Below, in pieces: positions 7,888 through 62,288 of a stretch of DNA of 64,000 nt; position 1 is the first letter of the stretch; each line of letters starts with the position of its first letter. The position numbers were made by a program, and so were the translations under genes. The DNA comes from Ruania zhangjianzhongii (lineage in GTDB: Bacteria; Actinomycetota; Actinomycetes; Actinomycetales; Beutenbergiaceae), in the NCBI RefSeq assembly GCF_008000995.1, contig NZ_CP042828.1, forward strand, positions 4,020,882-4,084,881, read 5' to 3'. The notes under the pieces were generated by a model that ran no database searches, was not told the DNA's origin, and was given only the letters and a program-made list of their open reading frames with translations.

Positions 7888-10800
7888 TCAGGCGTGCTGT
7901 CGGCGTGCCCGGGTTGCGATACCGGTACCGACCAGGAGTAGGAGTGCGGCCAGGGCGGCCAGCACACCGACGTCGGCTCCGGTGGTGGGCAGGTCGCCAC
8001 CGGTGGACCCCTCGGTAGGTGCCTCACTCGAACCAGTTGGCTGCTCGCCTGGGCCGGTGGAGTCCTCGCCTGGGTCGGTGGGGTCCTGGCCCGGGTCGGT
8101 CGGGTCCGCACCCGGGTCGGTGGGCGCCTCCTGGCCGGCGGTGCTGAACTCGAAGGTCCACTCCGTGGTTGCACCCTCCGGTAGCACGTAACCCTCAGCT
8201 GCCCGGGCAATGATCGTCACCGAACCCTGCGCCGCATAGGTCCCTGGTTCCAACACCTCATCCGGGGTAGGCACCAACGCCGTAGCCAGGGACCGCCCGA
8301 GCACCGACCGCGACCCCGCCACACCAGGACTCCCCCCGGCGCTCTCACCGAGCAGGACATACTCCACACCCTCGACCTCAGGGATCGTGAACGCATCATC
8401 CTCGGTACCGGGTTCGTCGGTGAAGACCACCTCTTCCGGGGTCACCTCCACCAGTTCCCCCGGCCCACCGGTGGCATCGAAGGTGTGCGACCACTCCACC
8501 GTCGCACCCTCCGCGAGCTCATAACCCTCCACGGCCTGCGCGGTCACCGTCACCGTGCCTTCACCGGGGTGGGTCCCAGCCTCGATCACGTCACCACCGG
8601 CCAGGTACTGCACACCCTCGACCTCAGGAACCACGAACGAATCGGAGTCCGTACCGGGCTCGTCGGTGAACGTCACCTCCTCCGGAGTGACCTGCACCGG
8701 TTCCTCGGGTTCGGGCTGCCCAGCTTCGATGCCGGTCAGGTACTCAAACCCCGACGTCGCGAAGGACTCCCCATCGCCAGCCATGTCGTACTCCAACGCG
8801 TAATACGCGATCGGAGCCTCCTGCGCGGCAGCGAGGATCTCCTGCAACGCCATCTCGCCCTCACCCAGATTCGTGAACGTCGGACCATCCGCACCACCCA
8901 GGTCGGTGGCGTCCTTGATGTGCAGCAACTCGACCCGATCCCCATAGGTACCGATCAGCTCGACCACATCCACACCCGCATGCGCAGCCCAGGCCACATC
9001 CAGCTCGAACGTCACATACTCCGGGTTCGTCTCAGCCACCAGGATCTCCCACGCCGACAACTGCTCACCCTCATGCTCATACATGGTCGTGAACTCACCA
9101 TCATGGTTATGACCGAAGAACTTCCCCACCCCGGCCTCCACCGAAAGCTGACCCAGCCGGTTCATCGTCTCCGCAGTCGCCAACGTGTCCTCATACGAGC
9201 CGATACCCGGAGCAGCGAAACCACCCGAACCCACATACTCCTGACCCAACGTGTCCACGAACTCCAACGTCTCACCGAAAGAGTCCTCATCGACGTTGTA
9301 ATGCGAGGACGGAACACTCAACCCATACCCCGCAGCCAGCTCACGAAACTCCTGCGCCGTGTAGCCCTCGAAATTGCCACCAAAAGGCTCAATATTGACA
9401 AACCCGATCTCACCCAGGCGCTCCAACACCGCCTCCAGACCAACCTCATCCACCCACGGAATCAGAGAGAACATCTGCAACGAGACATCCTCCACCGGAA
9501 CAGCCAACCGCTCCGGATCAATGTTCGTGAACACGAACGACCACTCCGCCGTCGCACCCTCAGCGAGCTCATAACCCTCACCTGCTTGGGCAGTGATGGT
9601 GACCGTGCCCTCGCCCGGGTGGGTACCAGCCCCGATCACGTCCTCACCGGCCAGGTACTGCACACCCTCGACCTCAGGAACCATGAACGAATCATCCTCG
9701 GTGCCGGGTTCGTCGGTGAACGTCACCTCCTCCGGAGTGACCTCGACCGGCTCCGCCGGTTCCTCGTCCAGTGCCTTGATCTGCACGTCGCGGTAGTAGA
9801 GGGTTTCCCCGCCACCGTGGTTCTGCAGGCCGATGAATCCCTGGCTCAGGTCCCGCGCGGGGTCGGTGCTGGTGAAGTCATTGATCAGCACCCCATTGAG
9901 GTAGATCAGGACGTTGTCTCCCTCGACGCGGATGTCGTAGGAGTTCCATTCACCCACCGGGTGGAGCGCGGCATCCCGGGCCTCTTCGTCGGCGCCCTGG
10001 AAGGTGTAGATGGCACCGGTCGTCCGGTCCGGTTCGTCCGAAGCGTCGATCTGCACCTCGTATCCCTGGTCGACGGCAACCCACGGATCGTCACCGGGAT
10101 CGGGGAAGCCGATGAACACCCCACCGTTGTCGTCCTTCACCATCTTCCAATCCAGGGTGAGGCTGTAGTCGCCCACGTGTTCGTCGGCGTGCCACAACAG
10201 ACCCATGCCGCCGCTGGTCCGCAACGTGCAGTTCTCGTCGCGTCCGAACGAGCCGTCACCGGCCAGGCTCCAGTCCTCGAAGCTGGCGAGAGTTCCGTCG
10301 AACAACGAGGAATAGCCGGCTTCTGGCTCGACCGGTGTGCAGATGTCCGGTTGGTTGATGGAGAGGACGTCGAGGTTGACGTTGCCATCATCTCCTTCGT
10401 CGTACCGCAGCGACACGTCGTTGGTTCCGGCGTCGAGCTCCAGATCACGGCTGACGGTGTCCCAGCTCTGCCAGGATCCTGTGCTCGGCAGCTCCCATGG
10501 ACCGACTCGTTCGCCATTGACGTACAAGGACACGGTCTTGGGCCCGTCGAACGGATTCGGACCGTTGGCGTACCGCAGGAACGTGGGATAGGTGCCCGCT
10601 TCTTCCACCGTGACATCGAAGCTGACCCCGGCACCGACCTCTTGGATGGCATCGGCGAAGCCGGCACCCGAGTAGCCGCTGTGCTCGGTGTCGATGTCGG
10701 CGCCACCGCTCAGCGTCGCCTGCTCGGCCTCGTAGAAGCCACGGTCGGCCGGGCCGACATATCCGGGCAGCTGGTTCAGCGTGTACCACGCCTCGGTGCT

Positions 10801-12801
10801 CCAGAGCTGCTCGCCTCCCTCGGACTCGAACGGCTGTGGATCGTGCGGGGAGCGAATGTGCACGACTCGGTCGGGCCGGAGGCCGTCGATCTTCAGCGTC
10901 ACGGTGGTGCGATCCGCTGAGGCCTCAGCACTCACCACGGGGAGTACCTCTTCGCCGACCTTCGGGCCGCCGTAGGAGGAGGTGGGCACATAACGCCACT
11001 GCGAGACGTCGTAGGCGTCCGCGAGGTTGTCGACAGTCGCTTCGGACAGCGGCTCGGTGTAGGTGATCTCGAAGCCGTCCTCGACGAGGTTGACCGAATG
11101 CATGTCGAAGGTGTCCTCGTTCACCGGAACGAGCTTCTGCAGCCCGTAGTCCAGCTTGCCCGGCTCGCTCCAGTTGCCGGCTTCGCCGATTCCGCCGACG
11201 TAGACAGAGCCGTCCGGACCGACGATCGTCCGGTTGACACCGGCCTCGAGGCCCGCGCTGTGCCGGAAGACCGCACCTTGGTATTCACCCTCGACCTCTT
11301 CGAGCGCGATGCGCTGCAGCCCGCCGTAGGTGACGTCTCCGAAGAGCATCTGGCCGGCGAAGGGTCCCGTCTCCATCGTGATGGGAGCACTCGGCGAGTT
11401 TCCGATGGCGTTCTGCGGGATCCAGACGGCCGGCGGGGTCACCGGCTGATCGTCGAACGGACCGGCCGGCTGGTTGTAGTGGTTGAAGAAGCGGTCCTGC
11501 TCGATGTGCACGAGCTTCGAGCTCGGCAGCCAGTCGCCCTGATTGTCCATCACGAACAGGTCCTCGTTCGGACCCCAGGCAATGCCGTTCGGGGTACGCA
11601 GTCCGCCCGCGATGTAGCTCACTTCGCCCGTCTCGCGATCGACCTTGATGGTCGTCCCCCGGTTCTCGGCAGGCTGCGGTTCGGTCGAGGCACCACCCTG
11701 ATCGATGGCCACCGACAGGCTCAGGTAGAAGTAGTCCTCGTCGTGGATCAGGCCGAACGCGAACTCGTGGAAGTTCTCTCCGAACGGCCAGGTGGCGATC
11801 TGCTCGCGTTGGTCGTACTGACCGTCACCATCAGGGTCTGTCAGCTCGGTCAGACCGTCCCGTTCGGAGACGAAGATGGAGTCGTCGATGATGTCGACGC
11901 CCATCGGGTTGAACAGTTCGGAGGCGACCAGTGTGGCGGTGACGTCCTCCGGGCCGGTGGCGTCCTGGACACCTTCGAGGAGGTACACCTCGCCGGAATG
12001 TGGATCGTCGGTCCAGCCCCCGGGGCTCACATTGCCCGAGGTGACGACGACCATGTCGCCCTCCGCGGTGAAGTCCAGTGCCGAGACCATCGGCTCGAAG
12101 CCCTCGGGACGGAGGTCGACCAGCTCGTAGTTGGGGTTTACGTCGAAGAGCGGGAGGCCGTCTCCGGCGGTGTCACTGTCACCCACGCAGTTCTTGATCC
12201 CCGGTGCGGTCACCCGCACCACTCCCGCCTCGGTGCTCAGCACGTCGTTGGGTACGGTGACGAACTCGCTGGTTCCCGGGACCTTCCACTCCAGGGTCAA
12301 CCGCTGATCGTTCGTACCGTCGAAGTGCTCGATGCGCAGTGCGTGGAAACCGGCCTCCAGGGTCACCGTGCCGGTCACGGAGGTGGAGTCCTGGGGACCA
12401 TCGTTCTCCAGGATCAGCTCGTCGTCGAGGTAGAACAGCGCACCGTCGTCATTGGTCATCCGGAACTCGTAGTCGCCTGCTTCGGCAACGTCCAAGTTGG
12501 CGAGGGCATGGGTGACGAAGTGGTCACCAAGGCCGAACTGCTCCTGGGAGTCCCAGTCGATGGTCTCCATCACCTTGTCGACGTTGGGTGTGGTCCCCGG
12601 CACCAGCTCGCAGACCGCCTCAGGAGCGCGGCCCAGCTGGAACGTTCGCAGGGTGACACCGGCCTCCTGCTCCGGGAGGGCATTCGGAGGCACCGGAGCA
12701 GCGCTCACCCCGGCAATAGTCAGCGGCATCAGCACTGCGGCGGACAACGCAGCAACGGCCCCTCGGGCCAGCCAGCGGCCGCCTCTGGAAGGTCTGGACA
12801 C
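7888..12801 (-). CDS. Giant wall-anchored multidomain sugar-processing protein (PA14, propeller, CBM, DUF1080, TIM barrel, LPxTG)
   Basis: A 1637-residue surface protein. The start is a GTG with an AAGGAGGA ribosome site; a signal peptide covers about residues 1-35. Domains in order: PA14-like (about 48-175); a sugar-dehydrogenase-like beta-propeller (about 215-560, with GLRTPNGIAWGP and MDNQGDW); an Ig-like linker (560-685); a CBM6/35 carbohydrate-binding module (about 686-815, starting FYEAEQATLSGG); a DUF1080/3-keto-disaccharide hydrolase domain (about 830-1010, LFDGTLASFEDW, NGGVFIGF, EWNSYDIRVEG); a repeat module; a sugar isomerase/epimerase TIM barrel (about 1100-1358, with FVNIEPFGG, FELDVAWAAHAG, LLHIKDA, ALEYD); two further repeat modules; a Pro/Thr/Asp-rich spacer; and LPTTG (1604-1608), a hydrophobic segment and a basic end, a sortase signal. 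DUF1080 proteins cleave 3-keto-glycosides; the combination suggests extracellular glycoside breakdown, but catalysis by each domain is inferred. Confidence 0.85.
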   Translation of the reverse strand: MSRPSRGGRWLARGAVAALSAAVLMPLTIAGVSAAPVPPNALPEQEAGVTLRTFQLGRAPEAVCELVPGTTPNVDKVMETIDWDSQEQFGLGDHFVTHALANLDVAEAGDYEFRMTNDDGALFYLDDELILENDGPQDSTSVTGTVTLEAGFHALRIEHFDGTNDQRLTLEWKVPGTSEFVTVPNDVLSTEAGVVRVTAPGIKNCVGDSDTAGDGLPLFDVNPNYELVDLRPEGFEPMVSALDFTAEGDMVVVTSGNVSPGGWTDDPHSGEVYLLEGVQDATGPEDVTATLVASELFNPMGVDIIDDSIFVSERDGLTELTDPDGDGQYDQREQIATWPFGENFHEFAFGLIHDEDYFYLSLSVAIDQGGASTEPQPAENRGTTIKVDRETGEVSYIAGGLRTPNGIAWGPNEDLFVMDNQGDWLPSSKLVHIEQDRFFNHYNQPAGPFDDQPVTPPAVWIPQNAIGNSPSAPITMETGPFAGQMLFGDVTYGGLQRIALEEVEGEYQGAVFRHSAGLEAGVNRTIVGPDGSVYVGGIGEAGNWSEPGKLDYGLQKLVPVNEDTFDMHSVNLVEDGFEITYTEPLSEATVDNLADAYDVSQWRYVPTSSYGGPKVGEEVLPVVSAEASADRTTVTLKIDGLRPDRVVHIRSPHDPQPFESEGGEQLWSTEAWYTLNQLPGYVGPADRGFYEAEQATLSGGADIDTEHSGYSGAGFADAIQEVGAGVSFDVTVEEAGTYPTFLRYANGPNPFDGPKTVSLYVNGERVGPWELPSTGSWQSWDTVSRDLELDAGTNDVSLRYDEGDDGNVNLDVLSINQPDICTPVEPEAGYSSLFDGTLASFEDWSLAGDGSFGRDENCTLRTSGGMGLLWHADEHVGDYSLTLDWKMVKDDNGGVFIGFPDPGDDPWVAVDQGYEVQIDASDEPDRTTGAIYTFQGADEEARDAALHPVGEWNSYDIRVEGDNVLIYLNGVLINDFTSTDPARDLSQGFIGLQNHGGGETLYYRDVQIKALDEEPAEPVEVTPEEVTFTDEPGTEDDSFMVPEVEGVQYLAGEDVIGAGTHPGEGTVTITAQAGEGYELAEGATAEWSFVFTNIDPERLAVPVEDVSLQMFSLIPWVDEVGLEAVLERLGEIGFVNIEPFGGNFEGYTAQEFRELAAGYGLSVPSSHYNVDEDSFGETLEFVDTLGQEYVGSGGFAAPGIGSYEDTLATAETMNRLGQLSVEAGVGKFFGHNHDGEFTTMYEHEGEQLSAWEILVAETNPEYVTFELDVAWAAHAGVDVVELIGTYGDRVELLHIKDATDLGGADGPTFTNLGEGEMALQEILAAAQEAPIAYYALEYDMAGDGESFATSGFEYLTGIEAGQPEPEEPVQVTPEEVTFTDEPGTDSDSFVVPEVEGVQYLAGGDVIEAGTHPGEGTVTVTAQAVEGYELAEGATVEWSHTFDATGGPGELVEVTPEEVVFTDEPGTEDDAFTIPEVEGVEYVLLGESAGGSPGVAGSRSVLGRSLATALVPTPDEVLEPGTYAAQGSVTIIARAAEGYVLPEGATTEWTFEFSTAGQEAPTDPGADPTDPGQDPTDPGEDSTGPGEQPTGSSEAPTEGSTGGDLPTTGADVGVLAALAALLLLVGTGIATRARRQHA
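8472..8693 (-). repeat. Long direct repeat encoding a 65-70-residue surface module (one of three copies)
   Basis: Three modules of the pattern EVTPEEVxFTDEPGT..., VPEVEGVxYL..., GTVTxTAQA.EGYELAEGA, EWS are encoded at about 9540-9750, 8472-8693 and 8150-8455. The first two copies are nearly identical in DNA over more than 150 bases. The third copy, nearest the wall anchor, carries an extra stretch of about 24 residues after EGVEYVLLGE. Recent duplication within the gene is the simplest explanation. Confidence 0.8.
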
Positions 12802-51232: not shown

Positions 51233-54200
51233 TCAGGCCGAGTGGCGGAGTTGTTCGGCCCACCGGATGTCGCCAGATCGCCCGCGGCTCTCCAGCGTCC
51301 GGGCGAGAGAGTCCCGCATCATCTGCAGGTCGAGGAACGCGTGCACCGCCTCGTGGCCGGCGATCGCCGACTCGAACAGCTCGACCGCACGGTCCAGGTC
51401 GCCGAGCTTCTCGTAGCACCAGGCGAGTACGCCGTCGGCACTGCCCCAGTACTGGCCGAACCGGAAGAGACCGTGCTCGCCACGATGGGGCAGCAGATGC
51501 GTCACGCACTGGTTGATAGCGCTCTGCTCGCCGGACCGGATGCAGACCCGGCCCAGCAGCAGCAGCCGGGGCACGATGTCGCTGTCCGGGATGTCCTGGT
51601 CGCGGACCTCCTCAAGCAGGTCGGCGCACCGGTCACGCGTCTCCTCCAGCGGTGCCGAGCCGGAGCGCAGGTAGGCGCTGACGTAGCGCATGATCGGGTG
51701 CCTGCTGGCCCAGCTGGGGTTGCTCAGCAGGGGCGAGCGGCGGGCGGCCTCCACATCGCCGGAGACCATCGCCAGATAGGTGCGCTGACCGTAGAAGCTC
51801 GCTGCGCGGCGGGCGTTCTCCGCCGGGTCGAGGTGCGGTGGTGCGGCGAGTGCCTCGTCGATGAGCCGGTGCCCGCGCTCGATCTGGCCAGTGGCGATCG
51901 TGGTGGTGATCCGCCACTGGGTCAGGTCGAACCGGGTCTGGTCGTCCGCCTCGGTGATCGGCACCGGGCAGGCCGGCTGATCGTCCATGGCCCGGACTCC
52001 GGCGGCGACCTCGCTGACCCACAGCCGCAGCCAAGATCCGACCGGGTCGGCCGTCGGGTCCTGGACCAGCTGGCGGGCGGTGGCCAGCTGGTCCGGTACC
52101 GTCTGGTGCTCCCAGACGGCCGTGCGCAACCGGCCGGTCAGGGCGGGTTCGACCTCAGTGGCGGCAGCCAGCAGTTCCGCGGCGCGGCCGGGCCGGTAGA
52201 CCTGGATCGCCGCGAGCGCGTCCCCGGCCAGCTCCGGCAGGTTCGCGATCACCCCGGTGCTGCTGGCCTGCGCCACTGCCGCGACCAGCGGGTCGGTGAC
52301 CTCGGGGCCCACTCGTCGGGCATAGTGCGTGCGCAGGTTGCCGAGCGCCGCGAACAGCTGCCATCGGGGCATCCCGGCGGTGCGCGCCAGCTGCAGCTGG
52401 GACTGGTACAGCTCGTTCGCGGACTGGGTCTGCCCGGCGGCGGCGCACGCTCCGGCAGCGGCACCGAGCAGCTGGGCGGTGTCCTCGTCCGGCGAGTGCT
52501 CCGGATCCATCGCCAGATAGTCGAGCCCGGCCCGGTAGTGCGCGGCGGCCTGGGTGAAGTCGAGCTGGGCGGCGGCGGCCCGGCCGGCGGCGGTGAGGTG
52601 GTCGACCACCTCACGGGTACTGGTGTGCGGCCAGCCACGCATGTAGTGGTGCGCGAGCAGGTCCGCCGGGCACGGCCGGCTGAGGGCGAGCCGGCTCAAC
52701 GCCCGGCCGATCCCGGCGTGGGTGCGGGTCTGCTCCTCCGCGGCGAGCTGCTGGTAGAGGTGCTCCCGAATGAGCGTGTGCACGAACTCGTGCGACCCCG
52801 CCCCGGCGGCCTCGCGGATCAGCCCGTGACTGGCAGCCACGGTGAGGTGGTCGCGCCAGGTGGGCAGGTCCTGCCGGAGCTCACCGGCCAGCGCCGCCAG
52901 GGTCATGATGGTGAAGCTGTCGCCCACGGCGGCGGCGATCCGCAACGTGACCAGCACCTCCTCGGAGACGATCTGCAGGTGCGCGTCGATGGCGGCGCGC
53001 AGATCGTCCGGCCGGTCCGCGGTGATCACGGTTCCGGCCTGGTGGAGCTGGTGCAGGTACAACGGGTTCCCGCCGGTCAGCCGCTGCATCGCCGCAGCAC
53101 GGTCGGGGTCACCGCCGGCACCGATGAGCTCGGCGACCGCCTCATGGTCCAGACCCGTCAACCGGATCCGCCGGGTGATCCACGGGGCCAGCTGCCTGCC
53201 CGCCGTGCGGCGCCGGGTGGTCAGCACCACCGCCATCGGCAGCGGCCCGGCGCGATCGAGCAGCGCCGCCAGTGCTTCTGCCGTGCCGGGCGGCGCCCAG
53301 TGCAGGTCCTCGACCACCAGCACCAGCCCAGCGGGCGAGGCGATCGCCCGCAGCCGCCGGGACAGCTCCTCATGCAGGACGTCAGTACTCACTGCCGGTT
53401 CGGCACTCGCGTCACCACCGAGGAGCCGCGCCAGCGGTGATGCGCTGTCCTCGTCCGGGACGAGCGGGGCGAACAGGGCGTACGGGAGGGTCCGGCGGGG
53501 GTCGCACGGCAAGATCAGGGCGCGGGGCGCCCCTTCGGCGGCCAGGCGTGTCAGCGCCGCGCGCACCAACACGCTCTTTCCGATACCTGCCTCACCGGAG
53601 ATCACGACGGCGGCCGGTCGCCCCGTGCGGATCGCCGTCGCCGCCGTATCGGCGACAGCCTCCAGATCGGCCGTGCGACCGACCAGTGCTGCACGGTCAT
53701 CGGTCGGGGTGGCCTCGGCTGCCCGGACGGCGACCGCGGGGTGCCGAGGTCCGCTCGAGTGACCGGGGCTGGCCACCTGGCCACCCGGGCGAGCGGGCGA
53801 AGGTGCGCTGGCAGCGGCGTCGCCGAGCCGCTCGATCGCGCGGGACAGCTCGGGCCCGGGCTCGATGCCCTGGTCGATCAGCGCGCGCCGGGCCCGGTCG
53901 CAGACCCGGTGGGCGTCGGCAGGGTTTCCGAGCTCAAGGTGGCAGCCGATCAGCAGCGCCTGACTGTGCTCCCACTCCGGCCGCGCGGCCGCCACCGGCT
54001 CGAGCAGCTCGATCGCTTCGCTCGTGCGCGCGTCAGCGGCGAGCAGCTCGGCAAGTCGTTCCATCGCCCCCAGGCGCAGCTCGGTCAACCGGTTCGCTTC
54101 GGTGGCCGGCAGGTGCGGCGGGGGCTCCTCGGTGCCGCGCCACATGGACAACGCTTGCCCGAACGCGGCGGTGGCAGCGGGCCGGTCGCCGGCCCGATCC

Positions 54201-54604
54201 AGCGCACTGCCGCGCAGCAGCAGCGCCTCAAAGTCCGCGGCATCGATCCGGCACCGTGCGGTGACCAGCCAGTACCCGTACGGGTCGGAATCGATGACGC
54301 GGGCACCCCACTTCTTCCGGAGCCGCCACACCAACGTCGCGAGCGATCGACGGGGCCGGGGCGGGAGCTCACCGGCGTAGACGGTATCGACGAGCTCGGC
54401 GATCGGCAGCCGCGCCTCACGTCGCGCGGCGACGGCAAGTGCCGCGATCAGACGCCGCTGGGTGGGTCCGCGCGGGGTGACATCCTCACCGTCGACAGCC
54501 ACGGACAGCTGCCCCAGGATCCCGATTCGGACGACGGCGTCGGCCCCGTCGTCCGCTGCCGGCACGCGCGCGGGCGCACTCCGTCCAGACTCCGTCGCCG
54601 ACAT
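51233..54604 (-). CDS. Large SARP-type regulator: BTAD, AAA ATPase and TPR domains
   Basis: A 1123-residue regulator of the AfsR class. An OmpR-like DNA-binding domain (about 27-110, VRIGILGQLSVAVDGEDVTPRGP and SLATLVWRLRKKW) and a BTAD domain (about 115-260, RLGAMERLAELLAADARTSEAIELLEP) are followed by an AAA_16 ATPase (about 310-600; Walker A GEAGIGKSVL, Walker B LVLVVEDLHWAPPG) and a long TPR-like region to the end. These proteins are activators of secondary metabolism or surface genes. A candidate CRP/GlxR site overlaps its promoter. It converges on the alpha-galactosidase gene. Confidence 0.88.
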   Translation of the reverse strand: MSATESGRSAPARVPAADDGADAVVRIGILGQLSVAVDGEDVTPRGPTQRRLIAALAVAARREARLPIAELVDTVYAGELPPRPRRSLATLVWRLRKKWGARVIDSDPYGYWLVTARCRIDAADFEALLLRGSALDRAGDRPAATAAFGQALSMWRGTEEPPPHLPATEANRLTELRLGAMERLAELLAADARTSEAIELLEPVAAARPEWEHSQALLIGCHLELGNPADAHRVCDRARRALIDQGIEPGPELSRAIERLGDAAASAPSPARPGGQVASPGHSSGPRHPAVAVRAAEATPTDDRAALVGRTADLEAVADTAATAIRTGRPAAVVISGEAGIGKSVLVRAALTRLAAEGAPRALILPCDPRRTLPYALFAPLVPDEDSASPLARLLGGDASAEPAVSTDVLHEELSRRLRAIASPAGLVLVVEDLHWAPPGTAEALAALLDRAGPLPMAVVLTTRRRTAGRQLAPWITRRIRLTGLDHEAVAELIGAGGDPDRAAAMQRLTGGNPLYLHQLHQAGTVITADRPDDLRAAIDAHLQIVSEEVLVTLRIAAAVGDSFTIMTLAALAGELRQDLPTWRDHLTVAASHGLIREAAGAGSHEFVHTLIREHLYQQLAAEEQTRTHAGIGRALSRLALSRPCPADLLAHHYMRGWPHTSTREVVDHLTAAGRAAAAQLDFTQAAAHYRAGLDYLAMDPEHSPDEDTAQLLGAAAGACAAAGQTQSANELYQSQLQLARTAGMPRWQLFAALGNLRTHYARRVGPEVTDPLVAAVAQASSTGVIANLPELAGDALAAIQVYRPGRAAELLAAATEVEPALTGRLRTAVWEHQTVPDQLATARQLVQDPTADPVGSWLRLWVSEVAAGVRAMDDQPACPVPITEADDQTRFDLTQWRITTTIATGQIERGHRLIDEALAAPPHLDPAENARRAASFYGQRTYLAMVSGDVEAARRSPLLSNPSWASRHPIMRYVSAYLRSGSAPLEETRDRCADLLEEVRDQDIPDSDIVPRLLLLGRVCIRSGEQSAINQCVTHLLPHRGEHGLFRFGQYWGSADGVLAWCYEKLGDLDRAVELFESAIAGHEAVHAFLDLQMMRDSLARTLESRGRSGDIRWAEQLRHSA

Positions 54605-54745: not shown

Positions 54746-55498
54746 TCAGAGCGGATGGTCGTCCACGTCGATCACCGAGATCGACGCGACCTGGGGGTCC
54801 CGGTGCGCGATCAGGTCGGTCAAGCGCTGGGAGACCGGGTGGCCGCCGAGCTCGGCGACCGCCTGCCGCAGCACAGCCAGCGCATCTGCCTGGCGGTCGA
54901 GCAGGTGCAGCGCCCGTGCCAGCAGCAGCCGGAAGCCGAGCCGGTCCGGATGTGCGGCCACCAGCTGACGTAGCTGGGCGACGGTGGTGAAGTCCACCCC
55001 GGACTCCATGGCGAGCTCCTGCTGCATCTCCAGCACGGCGAGCCGAGTCCGGCTGAGCGCCTCGATCGCGGGCATCGCATCGAGGAGGTGAGCCAGCTCG
55101 GGATAGGGATCGGAGCGCCACAGAGCCAGCGCGCGCTCGACGTCCTCGGCGACGCGCTCGTGGTCCCCCTCACGCCAGTGCTGACGCGCGTCGGCCGCCA
55201 GGGTGGCGAACCGGGCGGCGTCGATCACCTGATCGTCGGCGGTGAGCCGGGCGCTTGCCGGTTCCAGGGTGAGTACACCCGGGAGGTCGGCGGCCAGCCC
55301 ACGCAGCACGGCGCGGGCGCGTTGGTCGGGGTCGGACGGACCGTCATCGGCCAGCAGCTGAGCGAGGTCGGCGATCCGCACCGGCCGGTTCGCGTGCATC
55401 ACCAGCCAGCCGAGCACCACGCTCGCCTGCCCACCGACCCCGACCGGACCGTTCGCGGTCTGGACCTGGAGCGGCCCGAGAACCCGTATCTGCATCAT
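54746..55498 (-). CDS. SARP-family regulator (BTAD, short form)
   Basis: A 250-residue SARP-type activator without an ATPase. It has a winged-helix start (MMQIRVLGPLQVQTANGPV, then ASVVLGWLVMHANRPVRIADL) and the BTAD region (SRTRLAVLEMQQELAMESG, about 150-240). The start chosen has GGAGGA just upstream; the long frame before it is not supported. It is divergent from the exosortase cassette with only 252 bases between starts, where three GGTGACC heptamers lie. It is the best candidate regulator of the cassette. Confidence 0.85.
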   Translation of the reverse strand: MMQIRVLGPLQVQTANGPVGVGGQASVVLGWLVMHANRPVRIADLAQLLADDGPSDPDQRARAVLRGLAADLPGVLTLEPASARLTADDQVIDAARFATLAADARQHWREGDHERVAEDVERALALWRSDPYPELAHLLDAMPAIEALSRTRLAVLEMQQELAMESGVDFTTVAQLRQLVAAHPDRLGFRLLLARALHLLDRQADALAVLRQAVAELGGHPVSQRLTDLIAHRDPQVASISVIDVDDHPL

Positions 55499-55623
55499 TC
55501 TCTTCCTCCAGGGCACCACCACCGGCGCCACACCGCGCCGGCGACTCCGGTTCAGCGTAGTCACGCGGGCGCACCTGCCGGTCACCACTCGGTCTCCGCC
55601 TCGAACCGCACTGTTGACCGGGC

Positions 55624-55662
55624 GGTGACCGAGCCACCAGGACAGGTGACCGGCCGGTGACC
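55624..55662 (+). promoter_or_regulatory. Three GGTGACC heptamers at 21- and 11-base spacing
   Basis: GGTGACC occurs at 55624-55630, 55645-55651 and 55656-55662, on the same strand, with starts 21 and 11 bases apart. SARP regulators bind directly repeated heptamers with an 11-base period. A copy in the other orientation is at 55580-55586. The array ends 88 bases before the mini-protein start. Confidence 0.6.
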
Positions 55663-55750
55663 CGCCCTCCCTCCCCGGTTGCCACCGTGATGGCTGCTGC
55701 GGCCGTGAGCCGCACCGCACAGACACCATCGAGGGGAGTTGCCGCAGGCC

Positions 55751-55906
55751 ATGTACACGAGCAGAGGTCCGGGGATCGGAGTAGCAGCCGGTCTCGCCTA
55801 CACCGGAGTCGCCACCGGCTTCTACCTGGTCGTGGCGCTGGTGGTCGTCGTGGCTGGCCTGCTGCTGGTCCGCGCGGCCAGGCTGCGGAAGGCCGAGCAC
55901 CGATGA
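55751..55906 (+). CDS. 51-residue membrane mini-protein with an LAYTG sorting-like tail
   Basis: A small gene, too short for routine ORF lists, that reads MYTSRGPGIGVAAGLAYTG, then a helix (about 20-40, GFYLVVALVVVVAGLLLV) and a basic end (RAARLRKAEHR). The order LAxTG, helix, positive tail is that of a cell-wall sorting signal recognised by class E sortases of actinobacteria, but here it makes up nearly the whole protein. Its TGA overlaps the ATG of the GT2 gene (ATGA), so the two are translated together. Function unknown; it may be a membrane anchor or assembly factor. Confidence 0.6.
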   Translation: MYTSRGPGIGVAAGLAYTGVATGFYLVVALVVVVAGLLLVRAARLRKAEHR

Positions 55907-57255
55907 TGCCGCTACTGATCGGCATCTCGCTGGCCATCGTGGTGATGTTCCTGTCCTACCTGACCACGATCGCCCGGGCGTTCTTCCGCCGTCGGCCGGA
56001 CCAGCCGGGTGAGGCAGCCGCGTTCGAGTGGCACATGTTCGTCCCCTGCCGGGACGAGGAGGTGGTCATCGGTGCCACGGTCGACGAGCTGCGGCGCTCC
56101 TTCGGCCAGGCGCATGTGTGGGTGATCGACGACGACAGCGACGACGCCACTGCGGAGGTGGTGACCGGCCGCGCGACGGGCGACGCGATGGTGCACCTGG
56201 TCCAGCGCCGTCGCCCACTCGCCCGCACCGGCAAAGGGGATGCACTGAACGCGGCCTACCAGCAGTTGAACGACTTCCTGCCGGCCGGTTGCGACCGCTC
56301 CCGGGTGATCGTCTGCGTGGTCGACGCGGACGGGCAGATGGCCGACGACGCCCTGGACCACGTGGCCGGAGCGGCAGTCTTCGGTGACCCCCAGGTGGGT
56401 GCGGCGCAGATCTCGGTGCGGATGCGCAACCGTGACGAACGCCTGCCCCGGCCGGCGAAGGGACGAGTAGCCAATGCGCTCTCCCGCTACCTGGTCCGGA
56501 TGCAGGACATCGAGTTCCGCACCTCGATCTGTGCGATGCAGGCGCTGCGCACCAAGACCCGGAGCGTGGGCCTGGGCGGTAACGGCCAGTTCACTCGGCT
56601 GACCGTGCTCGACGCGATCGCCGACCAGGCCGGGCAGCCGTGGCACGGCGCGCTGCTGGAGGACTTCGAGCTCGGCGTGCATGTGCTGCTGACCGGGTAC
56701 GAGGTGCGCTTCGTGGCCGATACGCACGTCTCGCAGGAGGGCCTGACCGACGTCAAGCGCCTGTTCACCCAACGGACCAGGTGGTCCCAGGGGAACGTGC
56801 AGTGCATCAGCTATCTGCCGCAGATCGTGCGGTCCCCACACTTCACCTCAGGCGCCGTGCTGGAGGCGGGCTACTACCTGCTGCTGCCGTTCATCCAGAT
56901 GGTCGGGCTGTTCCTCTGGCCGACGCTGCTGGTGCTCACCGTGTCCGGGATGCTGCAGCTACCGGTCGGCCTCGGCGAGCTGCTCGCCAACTCGTGGTGG
57001 TTGCTCGCCCTGTTCTTCCTGATGAGCGTGGTCCCGTTCGCGATGTGGGGCCCGATCTACCGGGCCAAGTGCGAACCCGCCTCCGGGCGCTGGCGCTCGA
57101 TCGGCTGGGGCCTGGGGCTGTGGCTCTACACCTACTACATGTACGTCTCGGTGACCCGAGCGTTCATCCGCCTCGCGCTGCGCCGCCGCGGCTGGGCGAA
57201 GACCCGGCGCAACGCCGAGAACCTCACCATCGGACTGACAGCGAAAGAAGCGTGA
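55903..57255 (+). CDS. Membrane GT2 glycosyltransferase, exosortase-cassette partner
   Basis: A 450-residue processive-type GT2 enzyme. An N-terminal helix (about 3-25) leads to the GT-A domain with FVPCRDEEVVIG, VWVIDDDSDDATAEV, VVDADGQM (DxD), LLEDFELGVHV and the QRTRW motif (Gln290-Trp294), which together fit a bcsA-like or poly-sugar synthase. Four C-terminal helices follow (about 325-430). The start was set at MMPLLIG, overlapping the mini-protein stop; the longer frame is unsupported. Its place just before the exosortase gene resembles exosortase-linked glycosyltransferases of Gram-positive bacteria. Confidence 0.88.
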   Translation: MMPLLIGISLAIVVMFLSYLTTIARAFFRRRPDQPGEAAAFEWHMFVPCRDEEVVIGATVDELRRSFGQAHVWVIDDDSDDATAEVVTGRATGDAMVHLVQRRRPLARTGKGDALNAAYQQLNDFLPAGCDRSRVIVCVVDADGQMADDALDHVAGAAVFGDPQVGAAQISVRMRNRDERLPRPAKGRVANALSRYLVRMQDIEFRTSICAMQALRTKTRSVGLGGNGQFTRLTVLDAIADQAGQPWHGALLEDFELGVHVLLTGYEVRFVADTHVSQEGLTDVKRLFTQRTRWSQGNVQCISYLPQIVRSPHFTSGAVLEAGYYLLLPFIQMVGLFLWPTLLVLTVSGMLQLPVGLGELLANSWWLLALFFLMSVVPFAMWGPIYRAKCEPASGRWRSIGWGLGLWLYTYYMYVSVTRAFIRLALRRRGWAKTRRNAENLTIGLTAKEA

Positions 57256-57259
57256 CCCG

Positions 57260-57817
57260 ATGACCTCAGTACCCACCACCTACCCGCGCTCGCGCAGGAT
57301 GGTGCGCATCGCCGTCGGGCTGGTCCTGCTCGCCGCGGCGACGGCGTTACTCACCTGGCAACCGCAGGTACGCGCGGGCGAGATGGGCCTGGCCGGCAGC
57401 TGGTTCCACCTGGTGCTGGCCGGAACCACCCACACCGCCGGGGACACCATCTACTTCAGCTGGACCGGCGGGCCGTTGATCGGCCTGCAGGACACCTGGG
57501 AGTGCACGGTCGCGCTGCTGGCGGCACCGCTGTGCGCCATCGGCGGAGCGCTGCTGGCGCTGACCCGAGTACCCGCGCACCGGCTCCTGACCGGGCTGGT
57601 GCTGGCGCTGGTGCTGGTGGTCGCCGTGAACCAGGTGCGCCTCGCGATGATCGCGATCTCGCTGCAGCGCTGGGGCCTGGACGGCTACGACCTCAGCCAC
57701 AAAGTTCTCGGATCGATCGTCGCCATCGCGGGCTTCGTCCTCGCCGCGATGGTCTTCCTGAAGATCGCCGGGGCATCCCCGAAGGGCCGGCACCGGCCGG
57801 TCGCACCACTCGGATAA
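57260..57817 (+). CDS. Exosortase/archaeosortase-like membrane cysteine protease
   Basis: A 185-residue protein with about five membrane helices. The three catalytic positions of the exosortase family are visible in order: Cys82 in DTWECTVALL, Arg127 in VNQVRLAMIA (NxxR), and His147 in YDLSHKVLGS. Exosortases cut a C-terminal PEP-type tail of surface proteins and attach them to the envelope, often with sugar transfer. At 185 residues it is short, near the length of the small Gram-positive exosortases. It starts four bases after the GT2 stop, and its likely substrate gene follows 24 bases later. Confidence 0.82.
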   Translation: MTSVPTTYPRSRRMVRIAVGLVLLAAATALLTWQPQVRAGEMGLAGSWFHLVLAGTTHTAGDTIYFSWTGGPLIGLQDTWECTVALLAAPLCAIGGALLALTRVPAHRLLTGLVLALVLVVAVNQVRLAMIAISLQRWGLDGYDLSHKVLGSIVAIAGFVLAAMVFLKIAGASPKGRHRPVAPLG

Positions 57818-57841
57818 CACCAAGGGAGAGGAAACACGGAA

Positions 57842-58891
57842 ATGAAGACACGAACACAGAGACACGGCGCGAGGCGGGCACTGACCGTGCTGGCCGGAGT
57901 GGCCATGGCCCTCGGGCTCGGAGCGGTTGCCGCCCCGGCTGCCCAGGCGGCTGATACCGATGCCGACCTGTCCCTCCTCAACAGCGGCCAAGGCCGTTGG
58001 GGCGAAACCGCTCCCGGTGCGTTCAGCATCGGAGCCCACAACCACGGACCGGCCGTGGCCACGAACTGGGTCGCAACCGCAACCTTCACTGACTTGGTCA
58101 CGATCGATCCGGCCAGCGTGACCTACGAGGGCGCAGTGACCTGCCCGGTGGTGACCGATCAGGAGATCATCTGCTCGGGCGATGCCTTGGCCGTCGACGA
58201 GGAAGCCGTAGTTCGATTTGAGGTCATCCCGAGCGGACCGGGCACCGGTTCATGGGAGGCGTCGGTCACCGCCGACGAGGTCGACCCGAATCCCGGGCCC
58301 AACTCCGTGTCCGGCCCCTTCGAGGTCACCCCGGTCGACGAGCCAGATCCCGCCGGCTCCGGCGACTGGGGCACCACCGGAAGCAATGTGATGGCGCCGG
58401 GAACGAGCGCGTTCTACGACCTGGCCTTCACCTGCCTCTCCACCGAGGGCTGCGACTACGGGCCAGGCGTGACCATCACCGACAAGGCGGTCAACGGCGC
58501 CACCTTCAACGCCGGCACCAACAACGTCTTCATCAACGGCGAGACGAGCATCGGCGACTGCGACGTGACCACCACCGACATCAGCTGCACGGTCACCGAG
58601 ACCGGGCATGCCGACCAGGGTGACGTGATCAGCTCGCAAAGCATCAGCTACAACGTCTCCGAGGACGCCCCGGCTGACTCTCAGGTGTTCGCCCAGACGA
58701 TCGCCTTCCCCGCCGGCTGGACCGGGAACGACCCGAGCAACGACGTCTACCCGATCTCCACCCCGCCCGAGGTACCAGGACCGATGGTCTCCTGGCAGGT
58801 CGGCGCCGGCCTCGGCGGGCTCGTTCTGCTCCTCGGCGGCGGCGCTCTGCTCTGGCGCCGGCAGCACAGCCCGCAACCAGTAGCGGCCTGA
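57842..58891 (+). CDS. Secreted surface protein with PEVP-type C-terminal sorting tail (exosortase substrate candidate)
   Basis: A 349-residue exported protein. The signal peptide covers about residues 1-36 (AAPAAQA-ADTD). The body is Asp/Thr-rich and beta-rich, with two DUF11-like immunoglobulin-type domains (about 38-150 and 165-300) and paired cysteines. The C-terminal tail reads TPPEVPGPMVSW, a helix (QVGAGLGGLVLLLGGGALLW) and RRQHS: the order Pro-Glu-Pro-like motif, helix, Arg cluster is that of an exosortase substrate. It directly follows the exosortase gene, so it is the natural target. An AGGGAGAGG ribosome site precedes its ATG. Confidence 0.82.
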   Translation: MKTRTQRHGARRALTVLAGVAMALGLGAVAAPAAQAADTDADLSLLNSGQGRWGETAPGAFSIGAHNHGPAVATNWVATATFTDLVTIDPASVTYEGAVTCPVVTDQEIICSGDALAVDEEAVVRFEVIPSGPGTGSWEASVTADEVDPNPGPNSVSGPFEVTPVDEPDPAGSGDWGTTGSNVMAPGTSAFYDLAFTCLSTEGCDYGPGVTITDKAVNGATFNAGTNNVFINGETSIGDCDVTTTDISCTVTETGHADQGDVISSQSISYNVSEDAPADSQVFAQTIAFPAGWTGNDPSNDVYPISTPPEVPGPMVSWQVGAGLGGLVLLLGGGALLWRRQHSPQPVAA

Positions 58892-58988
58892 CCGCCACAC
58901 AAGCCGCACCGCCGGGTGGATGCCTGCCCATACAACCCCACCCGGCGGTGCTACCCCACACAGCACGTTCAGAAGGGAGGGGTGAGCG

Positions 58989-60203
58989 ATGGCCACCCTG
59001 GCGCCTGAACCCGAGGCACCGATCGCCGTCGTGCTCGGGACCCGCCCGGAGATCATCAAGCTCGCCCCGGTGATCCGCGAGCTGGGCGAGCGCGCCTGGG
59101 TGATCCACACCGGGCAGCACTACGACCCGAACCTGGCCGACACCTTCTACACCGGCGCCGGTCTGGTGCCGCCCGAAACCCAGCTCGACGGTGTGGGCGG
59201 GCGGACCCGCACTGCGCAGATCGCCGGCATCCTCAGCCAGCTCGAGACCCTGTTCACCGCTCGCCGCCCGGCAGCGGTGATCGTGCAGGGCGACACCAAC
59301 TCCACCAACGCCGGCGCCCAGGCGGCCAGCTATCACGGCATCCCCCTGGTGCACGTGGAGGCCGGGCTGCGCAGCCACGACCGGGCGATGCCGGAGGAGC
59401 TGAACCGGCTGCTGGTCGGGGTGCTCGCCGATCTGCACTGCGCCGCGACCGAGCACAATGTGCGCAACCTGCAGCAGGTGGGCGTACCCGCTGAGCGGAT
59501 CGCACTCACCGGAAACACCATCGTGGCGGCCGTGGAGAACATCCTCGGCCAGGCCGACGACGGCGTCCGGGCGGGCCACGACGCTGCCGAACGCTTCGTG
59601 CTCGCCACCATCCACCGGCCGGAGAACACCGACGACCCGGCCCGGCTGGCCACAGTGCTGACCGAGCTGGCCGCCATCGAGCTCCCGGTCCTGCTGCCGC
59701 TGCATCCACGCACCCGCGCGCTGCTCGCCCGGCACCAGCTCGAGCACCTGCTCGAGCCGCTCATCGTGCTCGACCCGCTCGGCCATGCCGATTTCCTCAC
59801 CGCGGCCGCCAACGCCGCGCTGCTGATCTCCGATTCCGGAGGCGTGCAGGAGGAGTGCACCGTGTTGAAGAAGCCGCTGATCGTGGTGCGCAACTCGACC
59901 GAACGCCCGGAGTCCATCGACGCCGGCTTCGCTCACCTGGTGCCGCCCGGGCCGGCGATCCACACCCTCGCCGGTGACCTCCTCGCCGACGCCGACCTGG
60001 CCCGCCGGTTACGGGCCACCCCCAGCCCCTACGGCGACCAGCACGCCGCCGCCCGGATCGTGGCCGCGACGCTGCGCCTGGTCGGCGGGTCCGGCACCGC
60101 GCATTCGAACAACGAGGGAGCGGCAGCCCGGCGCCCGTTGGGCCGAGACCCCGACCGTGTAAAAATGGTTTCCGTCCCAACTGATTTCTACGTTGCTCGT
60201 TGA
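58989..60203 (+). CDS. wecB: UDP-N-acetylglucosamine 2-epimerase (non-hydrolysing)
   Basis: A 404-residue enzyme that converts UDP-GlcNAc to UDP-ManNAc, a precursor of cell-envelope glycans. Family motifs include VVLGTRPEIIKLAPVI, VIHTGQHYD, VQGDTNSTNAGAQAA, VEAGLRSHDRAMPEELNR, HRPENTDDPARL and the nucleotide-binding DSGGVQEECTVLKKPLIVVR. A GGGAGGGG site precedes the ATG. It ends with an atypical tail of about 38 residues after the usual end. Its position behind the exosortase genes suggests the ManNAc feeds glycosylation of the cassette's surface protein, which is inference. Confidence 0.93.
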   Translation: MATLAPEPEAPIAVVLGTRPEIIKLAPVIRELGERAWVIHTGQHYDPNLADTFYTGAGLVPPETQLDGVGGRTRTAQIAGILSQLETLFTARRPAAVIVQGDTNSTNAGAQAASYHGIPLVHVEAGLRSHDRAMPEELNRLLVGVLADLHCAATEHNVRNLQQVGVPAERIALTGNTIVAAVENILGQADDGVRAGHDAAERFVLATIHRPENTDDPARLATVLTELAAIELPVLLPLHPRTRALLARHQLEHLLEPLIVLDPLGHADFLTAAANAALLISDSGGVQEECTVLKKPLIVVRNSTERPESIDAGFAHLVPPGPAIHTLAGDLLADADLARRLRATPSPYGDQHAAARIVAATLRLVGGSGTAHSNNEGAAARRPLGRDPDRVKMVSVPTDFYVAR

Positions 60204-60228: not shown

Positions 60229-60266
60229 GTGGCCCACGCCACATCGAAGTGCTGGAGGGAACCGAC

Positions 60267-62288
60267 GTGCGTCTGCGCCGCGCCACTGTGACCGCGACTG
60301 CTGGACTTCTGTTCGCATCGCTGACCCCGATCACCGCTGGAGCAACCAGCCAGCCGGCCGAGGTCTCCACTGACATCGACGCCATCATCGAGGAGATGAC
60401 CCTCGAGGAGAAGGTGGGTCAGATGTTCGTCCCGTACATGTACGGCTCGACCATCGACGCGGAGGACTCCCGCAACCTCGCTGCCGCCGGTGTGCTCAGC
60501 ATCGGGGAGATGATCGAGGAGTTCCACCCAGGCGGGATCATCTACTTCGGCTGGTCGAACAACCTCGATTCTCCGGGGCAAGTGGCCCAGCTCTCCAACG
60601 ACATCCAGGACCGCTCGGTATCCACCGGCGGGGTACCGATGACGATTTCTATCGATCAGGAGGAGGGTGTGGTCCGGCGCCTGCCCGAGCCCTCGGCGCA
60701 ACTGCCCGGTGCGATGGCGCTCGGAGCAACCGGCAGCGCGGAGCACGCCCGCAACGCGGCACGGATCACCGCGGAGAAGCTCGCTGCCGTCGGCGTGACC
60801 CAGAACTACTCCCCGATCGTCGACGTCAACTCCAACGCGATGAACCCGGTCATCGGGGTGCGCGCGTTCGGTGGTCAGACCGATCTGGTCAGCGCACTGG
60901 GACAGGCGCAGGTGGCCGGCTTCCAGGACGACGGCGGGATCTCCGCCTCGGTCAAGCACTTCCCTGGCCACGGGGACACCGATGTGGATTCGCACTACGG
61001 CGTACCGTTGATCGACAAGTCCGAGGAGGAGTTCCGCGCCGAGGACCTCCCGCCATTCCAGGCCACGATCGACGCGGGTGCCGACTCGATCATGACGGCC
61101 CACATCGTCGTGCCGGCGCTCGATCCCTCCGGCCGGCCCGCGACCTTCTCCCACACGATCCTCACCGACCTGCTCCGTGACGAGATGGGCTTCGAGGGGG
61201 TGGTCGTCACTGACTCACTGAGCATGGACGGCGCTCGGGAGGAGTTCGGTGACGACCGCGTCGCGGTCGAGGCGATCCTCGCCGGCGCCGACCAGATGCT
61301 CATGCCCCCAAACCTGCGCGTCGCCTACGACGGGGTGATGGCCGCCGTCGCGGACGGGGAGATCAGCGAGGAACGGATCGAGGCCTCGGTGCGGCGCATC
61401 CTGGAACAGAAGCAGCAGCGAGGGGTGATAGCCGACCCGCTGGTCGACGTCAGTGCCGTGGACGGGGTGATGGCCACACCCGAGCACTACGCCACGGCGG
61501 CACAGATCGCCGACGACAGCGTCACGCTGCTGGAGAACCACGACGATCTGCTCCCGATCGCTGACGGGGAGGAGGTACTCCTCACCGGCTGGGGTGGCCA
61601 GGACCGCCTCGACACGATGGCAGCCGAGCTGACCAGCCACGGCGCGGCGGTCACGGTGCACCCTGCTTCGGATCCCAGCGATGAGCAGATCGCCGCGGCT
61701 GTGGCTGCCTCGGCCGACCATGACGTCGTCGTGGTGACCACCCAGTCCGGGACCTTCGCGCCGAGTGCGTCGCAGCAGGCTTTGGTGGCGGCGCTCGCCG
61801 GCGGTGACGTGCCGGTCGCTCAGGTCTCCCTCCGCAATCCCTACGACGTGGCTAGTACCGCACCGACGGAAGCGGCGCTCGCCGCCTACAGCTGGGCCGA
61901 CGTCTCCCTCGAGGCAACCGCACGGGCGCTGATGGGCGCAGTCAACCCCGTGGGCCAGCTCCCGGTGCGGATTCCGACCGCTTCCGGTGCCGGCACCGAG
62001 TTCGACTTCGGGCATGGCCTGCACTACCCCGTCACTCCAGAGCCGACGACCTTCACCGACCGGACTGGCCGCGGCCAGGACACCTACGAGATCCCGGCGG
62101 TCCAGGGGGTGGATTATCTCGTCGACGGCGAACCCGCCGAGGCCGGGACGTACCGGAGTCCCCAGGACGTGACCGTGACCGCCGTGCCCGCCGAGGGGTA
62201 CGAGCTGGTCGATGGGGCGGCGACCGAGTGGGCCTCAGACTTCACGCCGGGCATTCCCGGCGGGCCTCCGCCGGGGCACGCCGGGTAG
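60267..62288 (+). CDS. Secreted GH3 beta-N-acetylhexosaminidase
   Basis: A 673-residue exported GH3 enzyme. The GTG start has GGAGG upstream and is followed by a signal peptide (about 1-28, ending ITAGATS). The NagZ-type catalytic barrel (about 35-400) has ISIDQEEGVVRRL, the loop KHFPGHGDTDVDSHYGVP with the acid/base His of this family, and the nucleophile Asp316 in VVVTDSLSMDGA. A C-terminal sandwich domain (about 420-590) follows, and then one copy of the repeat module found in the giant surface protein (TFTDRTGRGQDTYEIPAVQG). No anchor is present, so it is secreted. It probably trims N-acetylhexosamine from cell-wall or surface glycans. Confidence 0.9.
   Translation: MRLRRATVTATAGLLFASLTPITAGATSQPAEVSTDIDAIIEEMTLEEKVGQMFVPYMYGSTIDAEDSRNLAAAGVLSIGEMIEEFHPGGIIYFGWSNNLDSPGQVAQLSNDIQDRSVSTGGVPMTISIDQEEGVVRRLPEPSAQLPGAMALGATGSAEHARNAARITAEKLAAVGVTQNYSPIVDVNSNAMNPVIGVRAFGGQTDLVSALGQAQVAGFQDDGGISASVKHFPGHGDTDVDSHYGVPLIDKSEEEFRAEDLPPFQATIDAGADSIMTAHIVVPALDPSGRPATFSHTILTDLLRDEMGFEGVVVTDSLSMDGAREEFGDDRVAVEAILAGADQMLMPPNLRVAYDGVMAAVADGEISEERIEASVRRILEQKQQRGVIADPLVDVSAVDGVMATPEHYATAAQIADDSVTLLENHDDLLPIADGEEVLLTGWGGQDRLDTMAAELTSHGAAVTVHPASDPSDEQIAAAVAASADHDVVVVTTQSGTFAPSASQQALVAALAGGDVPVAQVSLRNPYDVASTAPTEAALAAYSWADVSLEATARALMGAVNPVGQLPVRIPTASGAGTEFDFGHGLHYPVTPEPTTFTDRTGRGQDTYEIPAVQGVDYLVDGEPAEAGTYRSPQDVTVTAVPAEGYELVDGAATEWASDFTPGIPGGPPPGHAG

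Follow-up and report, generated by a model that had tools for sequence, protein, structure and literature searches.

A 64,000-nucleotide stretch of the genome of the soil-type actinobacterium Ruania zhangjianzhongii (contig NZ_CP042828.1, positions 4,020,882 to 4,084,881; hereafter the window) carries on its forward strand a gene cassette (55751-60203) that probably encodes an intact, dedicated exosortase system with one enzyme and one substrate, together with a processive polysaccharide synthase of the N-acetylmannosamine (ManNAc) type and a sortase-anchored peptide. Divergent from a gene for a 250-amino-acid regulator of the SARP family (54746-55498, reverse strand), the cassette encodes a mini-protein of 51 amino acids (55751-55906), a membrane glycosyltransferase (GT) of family GT2 (55903-57255), an exosortase of 185 amino acids (57260-57817), its likely substrate (57842-58891) and WecB, a non-hydrolysing UDP-N-acetylglucosamine (UDP-GlcNAc) 2-epimerase (58989-60203). 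All six genes had been listed in an initial annotation of the window, and we could confirm each of them with its coordinates. The tight packing described there holds from the mini-protein through the substrate (ATGA overlap between the mini-protein and GT genes, 4 nt between GT and exosortase, 24 nt between exosortase and substrate); wecB is set off by a gap of 97 nt containing a 14-bp perfect inverted repeat.

The assignment of 57260-57817 to the exosortase family, proposed in the initial annotation, is borne out by hidden Markov model searches: the protein passes the exosortase/archaeosortase superfamily model TIGR04178 (33.5 bits, cut-off 23; 35.4 bits in the genome search, where it is the only exosortase match of its own genome). 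None of the named exosortase subfamily models of NCBIfam is passed. The nearest is XrtS (NF033767; 118 bits, cut-off 145), and the models of exosortase P (NF012139; 68 bits, cut-off 200) and exosortase R (NF012138; 66.7 bits, cut-off 150) are also matched below their cut-offs, which places the enzyme in an XrtS/P/R group; the Pfam model Exosortase_EpsH (PF09721) gives 18 bits, below its gathering score of 25.7. Among the enzymes of 10 relatives that were scanned, those of loci L106 (190 bits) and L122 (202 bits) pass the XrtS cut-off. The XrtG systems of Firmicutes, in which an exosortase lies beside a GT in a Gram-positive host, had been named as the closest layout; we rejected this affiliation, as no XrtG model stands among the nine NCBIfam families matched at E<=1 (assuming that such a model is present in the library), whereas XrtS, XrtP and XrtR are matched, and the Firmicu-CTERM model gives 10.4 bits on the mini-protein (cut-off 50). 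The AlphaFold2 model of the exosortase (pLDDT 93.9) is mainly helical with three short strands, and a sequence search of the PDB returned one match (0.03), to an unrelated chain of 61 residues.

In a survey of 297 genomes of the order of the host, 14 genomes had a match to the GT model over its cut-off, and 19 had exosortase matches, 20 in all. Comparison of coordinates showed that 17 of these 20 matches adjoin a GT detected with that model at E<=0.001, in some cases below its cut-off, the three others belonging to a single genus (g40). A wider set of loci was made of 34 stretches around the best GTs of the order and of the best 80 of 403 confirmed loci from a scan with a GT alignment, the named loci of which include Microbacterium, Arthrobacter, Paenarthrobacter, Curtobacterium, Nocardioides, Leifsonia, Kitasatospora, Streptomyces and Frankia, among others. 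Genes in the loci of relatives were called with our own codon-usage caller and are approximate, and the duplicates L067, L068 and L098 were dropped before distinct loci were counted. L067, from Candidatus Ruania gallistercoris, agrees with L034 in the 120 C-terminal residues of the exosortase; the genome of L034 (G285) is listed under the genus of the window, and Occultella gossypii provides the nearest named locus after it, which places the host close to Ruania and Occultella. Since these additional loci were chosen by their GT, only the survey of 297 genomes tests the linkage of exosortase and GT freely. The distances between exosortases and between GTs are correlated (r 0.82; none of 2000 permutations was as high), a result that shared descent alone can give. 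No exosortase was found in any of the 17 Streptomyces loci fetched, nor in three of those genomes searched whole. The high-scoring GTs without exosortase of loci L036-L042, L044 and L054, whose neighbours look by eye like kinases and response regulators, were set aside as belonging to another system.

The residues Cys82, Arg127 and His147, which the initial annotation had placed in exosortase order, are correctly positioned and are invariant in 16 aligned sequences. In a larger set of 73 exosortases (the window and 72 distinct loci), Arg127 and Asn124 are present in all, and Cys82 and His147 in 70 each. The three exceptions (L082, L084 and L085, all Microbacterium) have Ser in place of Cys82 and Leu in place of His147, and form one clade nested among enzymes of the active type, beside L086 and L096 that keep the residues (the tree was built without L073, for which no GT was called). 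These three loci have neither a mini-protein detectable by the profile nor a tailed neighbour by the fixed filter described below, so that the presence of Cys and His appears tied to that of substrate and mini-protein; judging from the sequences, this looks like a single natural loss. The altered exosortases adjoin a GT and WecB and could be degenerate or repurposed enzymes. A larger exosortase (525-aa frame) was also noticed in L066 (G049), between a GT2-like gene (read by eye) and a 179-aa secreted protein ending in PAEVPEAG, a transmembrane (TM) helix and RSR.

The likely substrate has a signal-like N-terminus and a beta-rich body matching DUF11 (30.5 bits, cut-off 24.6); its structure model is all-beta and of low confidence (mean pLDDT 62, below 50 in the tail). 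Its tail (PPEVPGPMVS, TM helix, RR) is tripartite, with a motif, a TM helix, a basic end and no LPXTG. The last ~45 residues, STPPEVPGPMVSWQ-helix-RRQ, are kept in the related loci L032 (Occultella gossypii), L033 and L034, and the N-terminal halves of the four substrates are less alike than their tails. Five tails share the elements P-x-E, S-x-Q and RR without variation, among them that of L035, which sits on a 363-aa protein without match to the window substrate; PGPxVSxQ is common to the tails of the window, L034 and L035. The layout of the PEVP-helix-RR tail pointed out in the initial annotation was thus recovered, and its comparison with PEP-type tails was not: neither the PEP-CTERM nor the PVV-CTERM model matched the substrate at E<=1 (the presence of the former in the library being assumed), and we rejected a PEP-CTERM identity on the absence of this match. 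The best CTERM match is to GVDTG_CTERM (16 bits, cut-off 29), and the LPXTG_anchor model reaches 15.0 vs 15.9, over profile positions 12-31 only, which correspond to the helix and RR part. A profile of the tail, with which 150 of 201 first-look candidates in the own genome were scored, matched only the substrate in full; its seven further matches at E<=1 are partial. The full-length substrate profile detected no further complete copy in this genome and two weak partial matches, both in one 1284-residue frame.

Tails of this kind recur beside exosortases. We filtered for same-strand neighbours at most three genes away that encode a tripartite non-LPXTG tail, and such a neighbour is present in 53 of 72 exosortase loci (the window and 71 others, L073 being left out as its genes were not called) vs one of 39 loci with a GT only (Fisher 2.5e-14). 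Counted by gene, the tail occurs in 54 of 162 genes close by and in 13 of 346 farther away (1e-18); both p-values overstate independence, since the loci are related. Among 10 tailed neighbours compared with NCBIfam, two match choice-of-anchor G and PVV-CTERM (L106 and L122), two choice-of-anchor P and two tandem-95 below the cut-off, one shows weak tail matches only and three match nothing; the protein bodies therefore vary while the tail stays tripartite. In L045-L053, from two other families, the cassette lacks the mini-protein and starts with an uncharacterised gene of ~290-350 aa abutting the exosortase, and the substrate candidates (266-304 aa) end in NAVVVPTPALP, a TM helix and RR, or similar.

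The GT passes the model of the XrtP-associated glycosyltransferase family (NF053846; 648.7 bits, cut-off 520). Invariant in 12 sequences are D76 and D77, D141 and D143, E253 and D254, and Q290, R293 and W294. The combination D,D / DxD / ED / QxxRW is the residue set of processive GT2 polysaccharide synthases, and after its own family the GT next matches NCBIfam models of polysaccharide synthases, PgaC (42.6 bits) among them. The product of 58989-60203 passes the WecB model TIGR00236 (299.3 bits, cut-off 210.15). WecB is established as the supplier of UDP-ManNAc, and a ManNAc-containing polymer is therefore the likely product of the cassette as predicted from its genes. A WecB-like gene lies in the fetched stretch of 55 of the 72 exosortase loci, at most four genes away in 45.

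The mini-protein consists of an MY start, a Gly-rich N-tail (14 residues before the motif), the motif LAYTG, one TM helix and an Arg/Lys tail, and no separate signal peptide is visible by eye; by its sequence it is a sortase-type (LAXTG, class E) signal and little else. Its profile detects a homologue in 60 of the 73 exosortase loci. The set of 62 mini-proteins, which includes those of L114 and L128 (loci without exosortase) and a truncated reading in L099, was seeded with one sequence picked by its motif and completed by similarity, so that a slight bias is possible in the following counts: 59 of 62 have the MY start, and 58 contain a motif (LAxTG in 51, LPxTG and IAxTG in three each, VAxTG in one), the other four (L070, L099, L100 and L128) having none. 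We considered the small-protein model LAXTG_small_WW (NF058583) as the family of the mini-protein and rejected it: the window sequence scores 32.5 bits (cut-off 65), none of nine other mini-proteins scanned passes it (two pass the general LPXTG_anchor model), and none of the 297 order genomes has a match over the cut-off. Matches below the cut-off occur in 161 of these genomes and, among those listed, are mostly in long open frames and not in small genes.

Class E sortases accept LAXTG signals, as reported for Streptomyces (PMC5148588). The genome of R. zhangjianzhongii has one sortase (a single Pfam match), of class E (266.7 bits, cut-off 160), and its 11 readable sortase-like tails comprise five LAxTG, five LPxTG and one MPxTG. 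A 1615-aa protein of the window (7888-12735, reverse strand) ends in LPTTG, a TM helix and Arg, although the only sortase is of class E. In a test to which 20 genomes were given, a class E sortase over the cut-off was found in all eight mini-protein-bearing genomes tested; of eight exosortase genomes without mini-protein, it was found in none of four in family f8 and in all four in family f14. That 60 of the 73 exosortase loci have a conserved protein which is almost purely a sortase signal hints that the sortase and exosortase pathways meet. Four Microbacterium cassettes (L078, L081, L086 and L096) also encode, just upstream of wecB and three to four genes from the exosortase, a protein of 687-710 aa whose sortase tail contains LAQTG.

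The sequences themselves show the components of the cassette, the co-occurrence of these components, the conserved catalytic residues, the tail and the operator; for substrate cleavage, transfer to a glycan, the nature of the sugar and what the mini-protein does, we infer the following model. The SARP regulator would switch on a surface-display cassette, in which WecB would make UDP-ManNAc and the membrane GT2 would polymerise ManNAc, or GlcNAc and ManNAc mixed, through the membrane. After export by Sec, the beta-rich substrate would be held by its C-terminal helix, and the exosortase would cut it at the PPEVPGP-type motif, immediately outside the membrane; Cys82 would be the nucleophile, assisted by Arg127 and His147. 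The C-terminus created in this way would then be passed to an acceptor, for which the end of the GT2 glycan that is held in the membrane is the likeliest candidate; protein and polysaccharide would thus reach the surface together. The mini-protein would insert with its N-terminus outside and be cut at LAYT|G by the single class E sortase, leaving a Tyr-headed, Gly-rich peptide of ~18 residues on the peptidoglycan, where it would probably tether this material to the wall or serve as its priming site. In Gram-negative bacteria, exosortase genes adjoin exopolysaccharide genes (PMC1569441), and exosortases, archaeosortases and rhombosortases are described as appearing to leave their substrates on the surface, which suggests transpeptidation to a new moiety (PMC11980579).

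Several observations weigh against this model or parts of it. Transfer to the glycan, though favoured here, is proposed by analogy with exosortase/exopolysaccharide and archaeosortase systems. The exosortase model found no convincing match in a fold search of the PDB (best Foldseek E 0.14), and in the loci chosen by their GT the linkage of exosortase and GT arises partly by construction. Nineteen of the 72 exosortase loci have no tailed neighbour by our filter; for at least one of these, L046, this is a failure of the filter, which its relative L045 passes. In one of the other 53 loci, L070, the tailed neighbour (a 203-aa gene) is probably no substrate. For 17 of the 72 loci, that of O. gossypii included, no WecB was detected in the stretch fetched, which in several cases was full-length, and wecB of the window may be a separate transcript, since a hairpin separates it from the substrate gene. 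The mini-protein is missing from 13 of the 73 exosortase loci, nine of them in families f8 and f14, which keep enzyme and substrate; the mini-protein is thus not essential to the core. Conversely, Kitasatospora indigofera (L114:6504-9344) has WecB, an HHHH-bearing LAATG mini-protein and a GT, and no exosortase match was found in its whole genome.

The exosortase could instead act as a C-terminal peptidase only, freeing the substrate, with the polysaccharide of GT2 and WecB co-regulated and unjoined. We regard this as possible and rather unlikely: no acceptor can be read from the sequence and the f8 and f14 cassettes keep enzyme, GT and substrate, which fits either reading, but the adjacency of GT and exosortase for 17 of 20 matches in the order suggests a direct link between their products. 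The initial annotation had proposed yet another relation, a complete system in which the processed surface protein would perhaps itself be glycosylated, on the reading considered here by the GT. Enzyme, likely cognate substrate and linked GT are indeed united in one cassette, and GT and substrate are so at many loci, but the glycosylation part of the proposal could not be upheld and appears very improbable to us: the GT carries the residues of processive synthases, unlike a protein glycosyltransferase, and its next matches are polysaccharide synthases; the substrates match different families in different clades. The catalytic side of GT2 synthases is moreover expected in the cytoplasm, whereas the substrate is outside.

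Other readings concern the mini-protein. PgaC has a small membrane subunit, PgaD, and the mini-protein could tentatively be seen as a comparable subunit of the GT2, with an incidental LAxTG. Its position just before the GT in many loci and its retention with the GT in L114 agree with such a role, which we nevertheless hold to be unlikely, given the presence of LA/LP/IA/VAxTG in 58 of 62 sequences, with LPxTG among the variants, an exchange typical of sortase signals, and given the class E sortase in all tested genomes that bear the mini-protein and the lack of this sortase in the four f8 genomes (but not in the four f14 genomes) without mini-protein. That the mini-protein is a second substrate of the exosortase seems quite improbable. 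Its layout of motif, helix and Arg, its frequency in exosortase loci and its loss together with the catalytic residues in L082, L084 and L085 are compatible with this role, but its sortase motif is unlike the P-rich tails of the neighbours and L114 keeps it without any exosortase match. As a more specific version of our model, the mini-protein could be a wall-borne peptide tether, in which the sortase-fixed peptide would carry the GT2 polymer on its near-invariant Tyr2, the obvious acceptor, and the exosortase would join the beta-rich protein to this polymer. We give this version little credence; if true, sortase and exosortase, two unrelated transpeptidases, would build one wall-protein-glycan assembly.

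The cassette appears to be a variant of a kind that is recognised by the curators of NCBIfam. In the XrtS/PVV-CTERM systems of Paenarthrobacter and Microbacterium (NF033767, NF051874), a tailed secreted protein, an LAxTG mini-protein, a GT and an exosortase are likewise found together (L106 and L122), with WecB too in L122, as in the window; the window differs by its exosortase below the XrtS cut-off, by a DUF11 substrate without PVV-CTERM match, and by the SARP gene and operator, which within this set were detected in no loci other than those of Ruania/Occultella. The GT belongs by its score to the XrtP-associated family, whereas the exosortase is not XrtP by its model. The Gram-negative XrtA/EpsH-PEP-CTERM systems, as outlined in PMC1569441, share a Cys-Arg-His enzyme, a tripartite tail and nearby polysaccharide genes; the window lacks a PEP-CTERM match, has a host without outer membrane and encodes one substrate in the cassette instead of many scattered ones. 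The LAXTG chaplins of Streptomyces resemble the mini-protein in its LAYTG-TM-Arg arrangement and in the company of one class E sortase (PMC5148588), and differ from it as it has no separate signal peptide visible, is almost only a signal and stays below the NF058583 cut-off. The initial annotation knew of no description of such a combination. We also found none in the openly licensed PMC literature, and no experimental description, but NCBIfam already holds models for the XrtP-associated GT, XrtS, XrtP, XrtR and PVV-CTERM; among our additions, the mini-protein tag and the SARP operator are of greatest interest.

To our knowledge, the acceptor of exosortases is unsettled in most systems, one reason being that the Gram-negative hosts studied in depth may possess substrates by the dozen. 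The present cassette, from a monoderm, unites a single exosortase and a single apparent substrate with one synthase for the glycan and one enzyme for its sugar nucleotide, under what appears to be an on-switch, so that the acceptor can be tested for here. The gene set is found repeatedly across the Actinobacteria, apparently as an experimentally unstudied mode of cell-surface decoration.

Control by SARP, suggested in the initial annotation, is probable in view of a putative heptad operator. The regulator contains a BTAD domain (PF03704; 65.1 bits, cut-off 22.1), and its gene is divergent from that of the mini-protein in the window, L032, L033 and L034; with our own profile, SARP genes were detected only in the Ruania/Occultella clade of the set. 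In the otherwise diverged intergenic region, these four genomes share four heptads (one GTTGACC, then three GGTGACC; 55613-55662, forward strand), with steps of 11, 21 (22 in L034) and 11, and one base changed in L032; none of 5000 base shuffles reached this arrangement. The exact pair GGTGACC-4-GGTGACC occurs at two sites of the 5.1-Mb genome, one in the putative operator and the other intragenic. Three of the 26 sites listed with at most one mismatch fall in the 250-bp region between the SARP and mini-protein genes; the control pattern, read backward, gave seven sites in the genome. A further heptad pair facing the SARP gene (55580-55597, reverse strand; GGTCACC-4-GGTCTCC on the forward strand) is present exactly or with one mismatch in the window, L033 and L034 and absent from L032; its presence in three of four genomes suggests autoregulation of the SARP gene. 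SARP operators are described as heptads with 4-nt spacers (PMC5930380). The direct heptad repeats, 4-nt spacers and 11-bp units recall the operators of the SARP-LAL regulator PimR described there, in comparison with which the window has a GGTGACC heptad, two pairs with 21-22 bp between the starts of the second and third heptads, and surface genes as the target instead of an antibiotic cluster.

A large SARP-LAL-like regulator (51233-54604, reverse strand; BTAD PF03704 67.1 bits, AAA_16 PF13191 79 bits) adjoins the short SARP, as it does in L032 and L033 (the contig of L034 ends before this position), and the two regulators may act in series. The inverted repeat after the substrate gene corresponds to a conserved hairpin with a 14-bp perfect stem directly 3' of the stop codon (58906-58951, forward strand), found in all four genomes folded (folding z of -3.6 in the window, -4.7 in L034, -5.2 in L033 and -2.2 in L032). 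A U-A to C-G change was read by eye in the hairpin of L033, and the hairpin is also present in L032, in which no wecB lies downstream. In L033 and L034, a fumarase-like gene follows directly 3' of wecB; in the window, a GH3 enzyme (60249-62288, forward strand; 179.6 bits with a beta-N-acetylhexosaminidase model, cut-off 207) lies between wecB and the fumarase-like gene.

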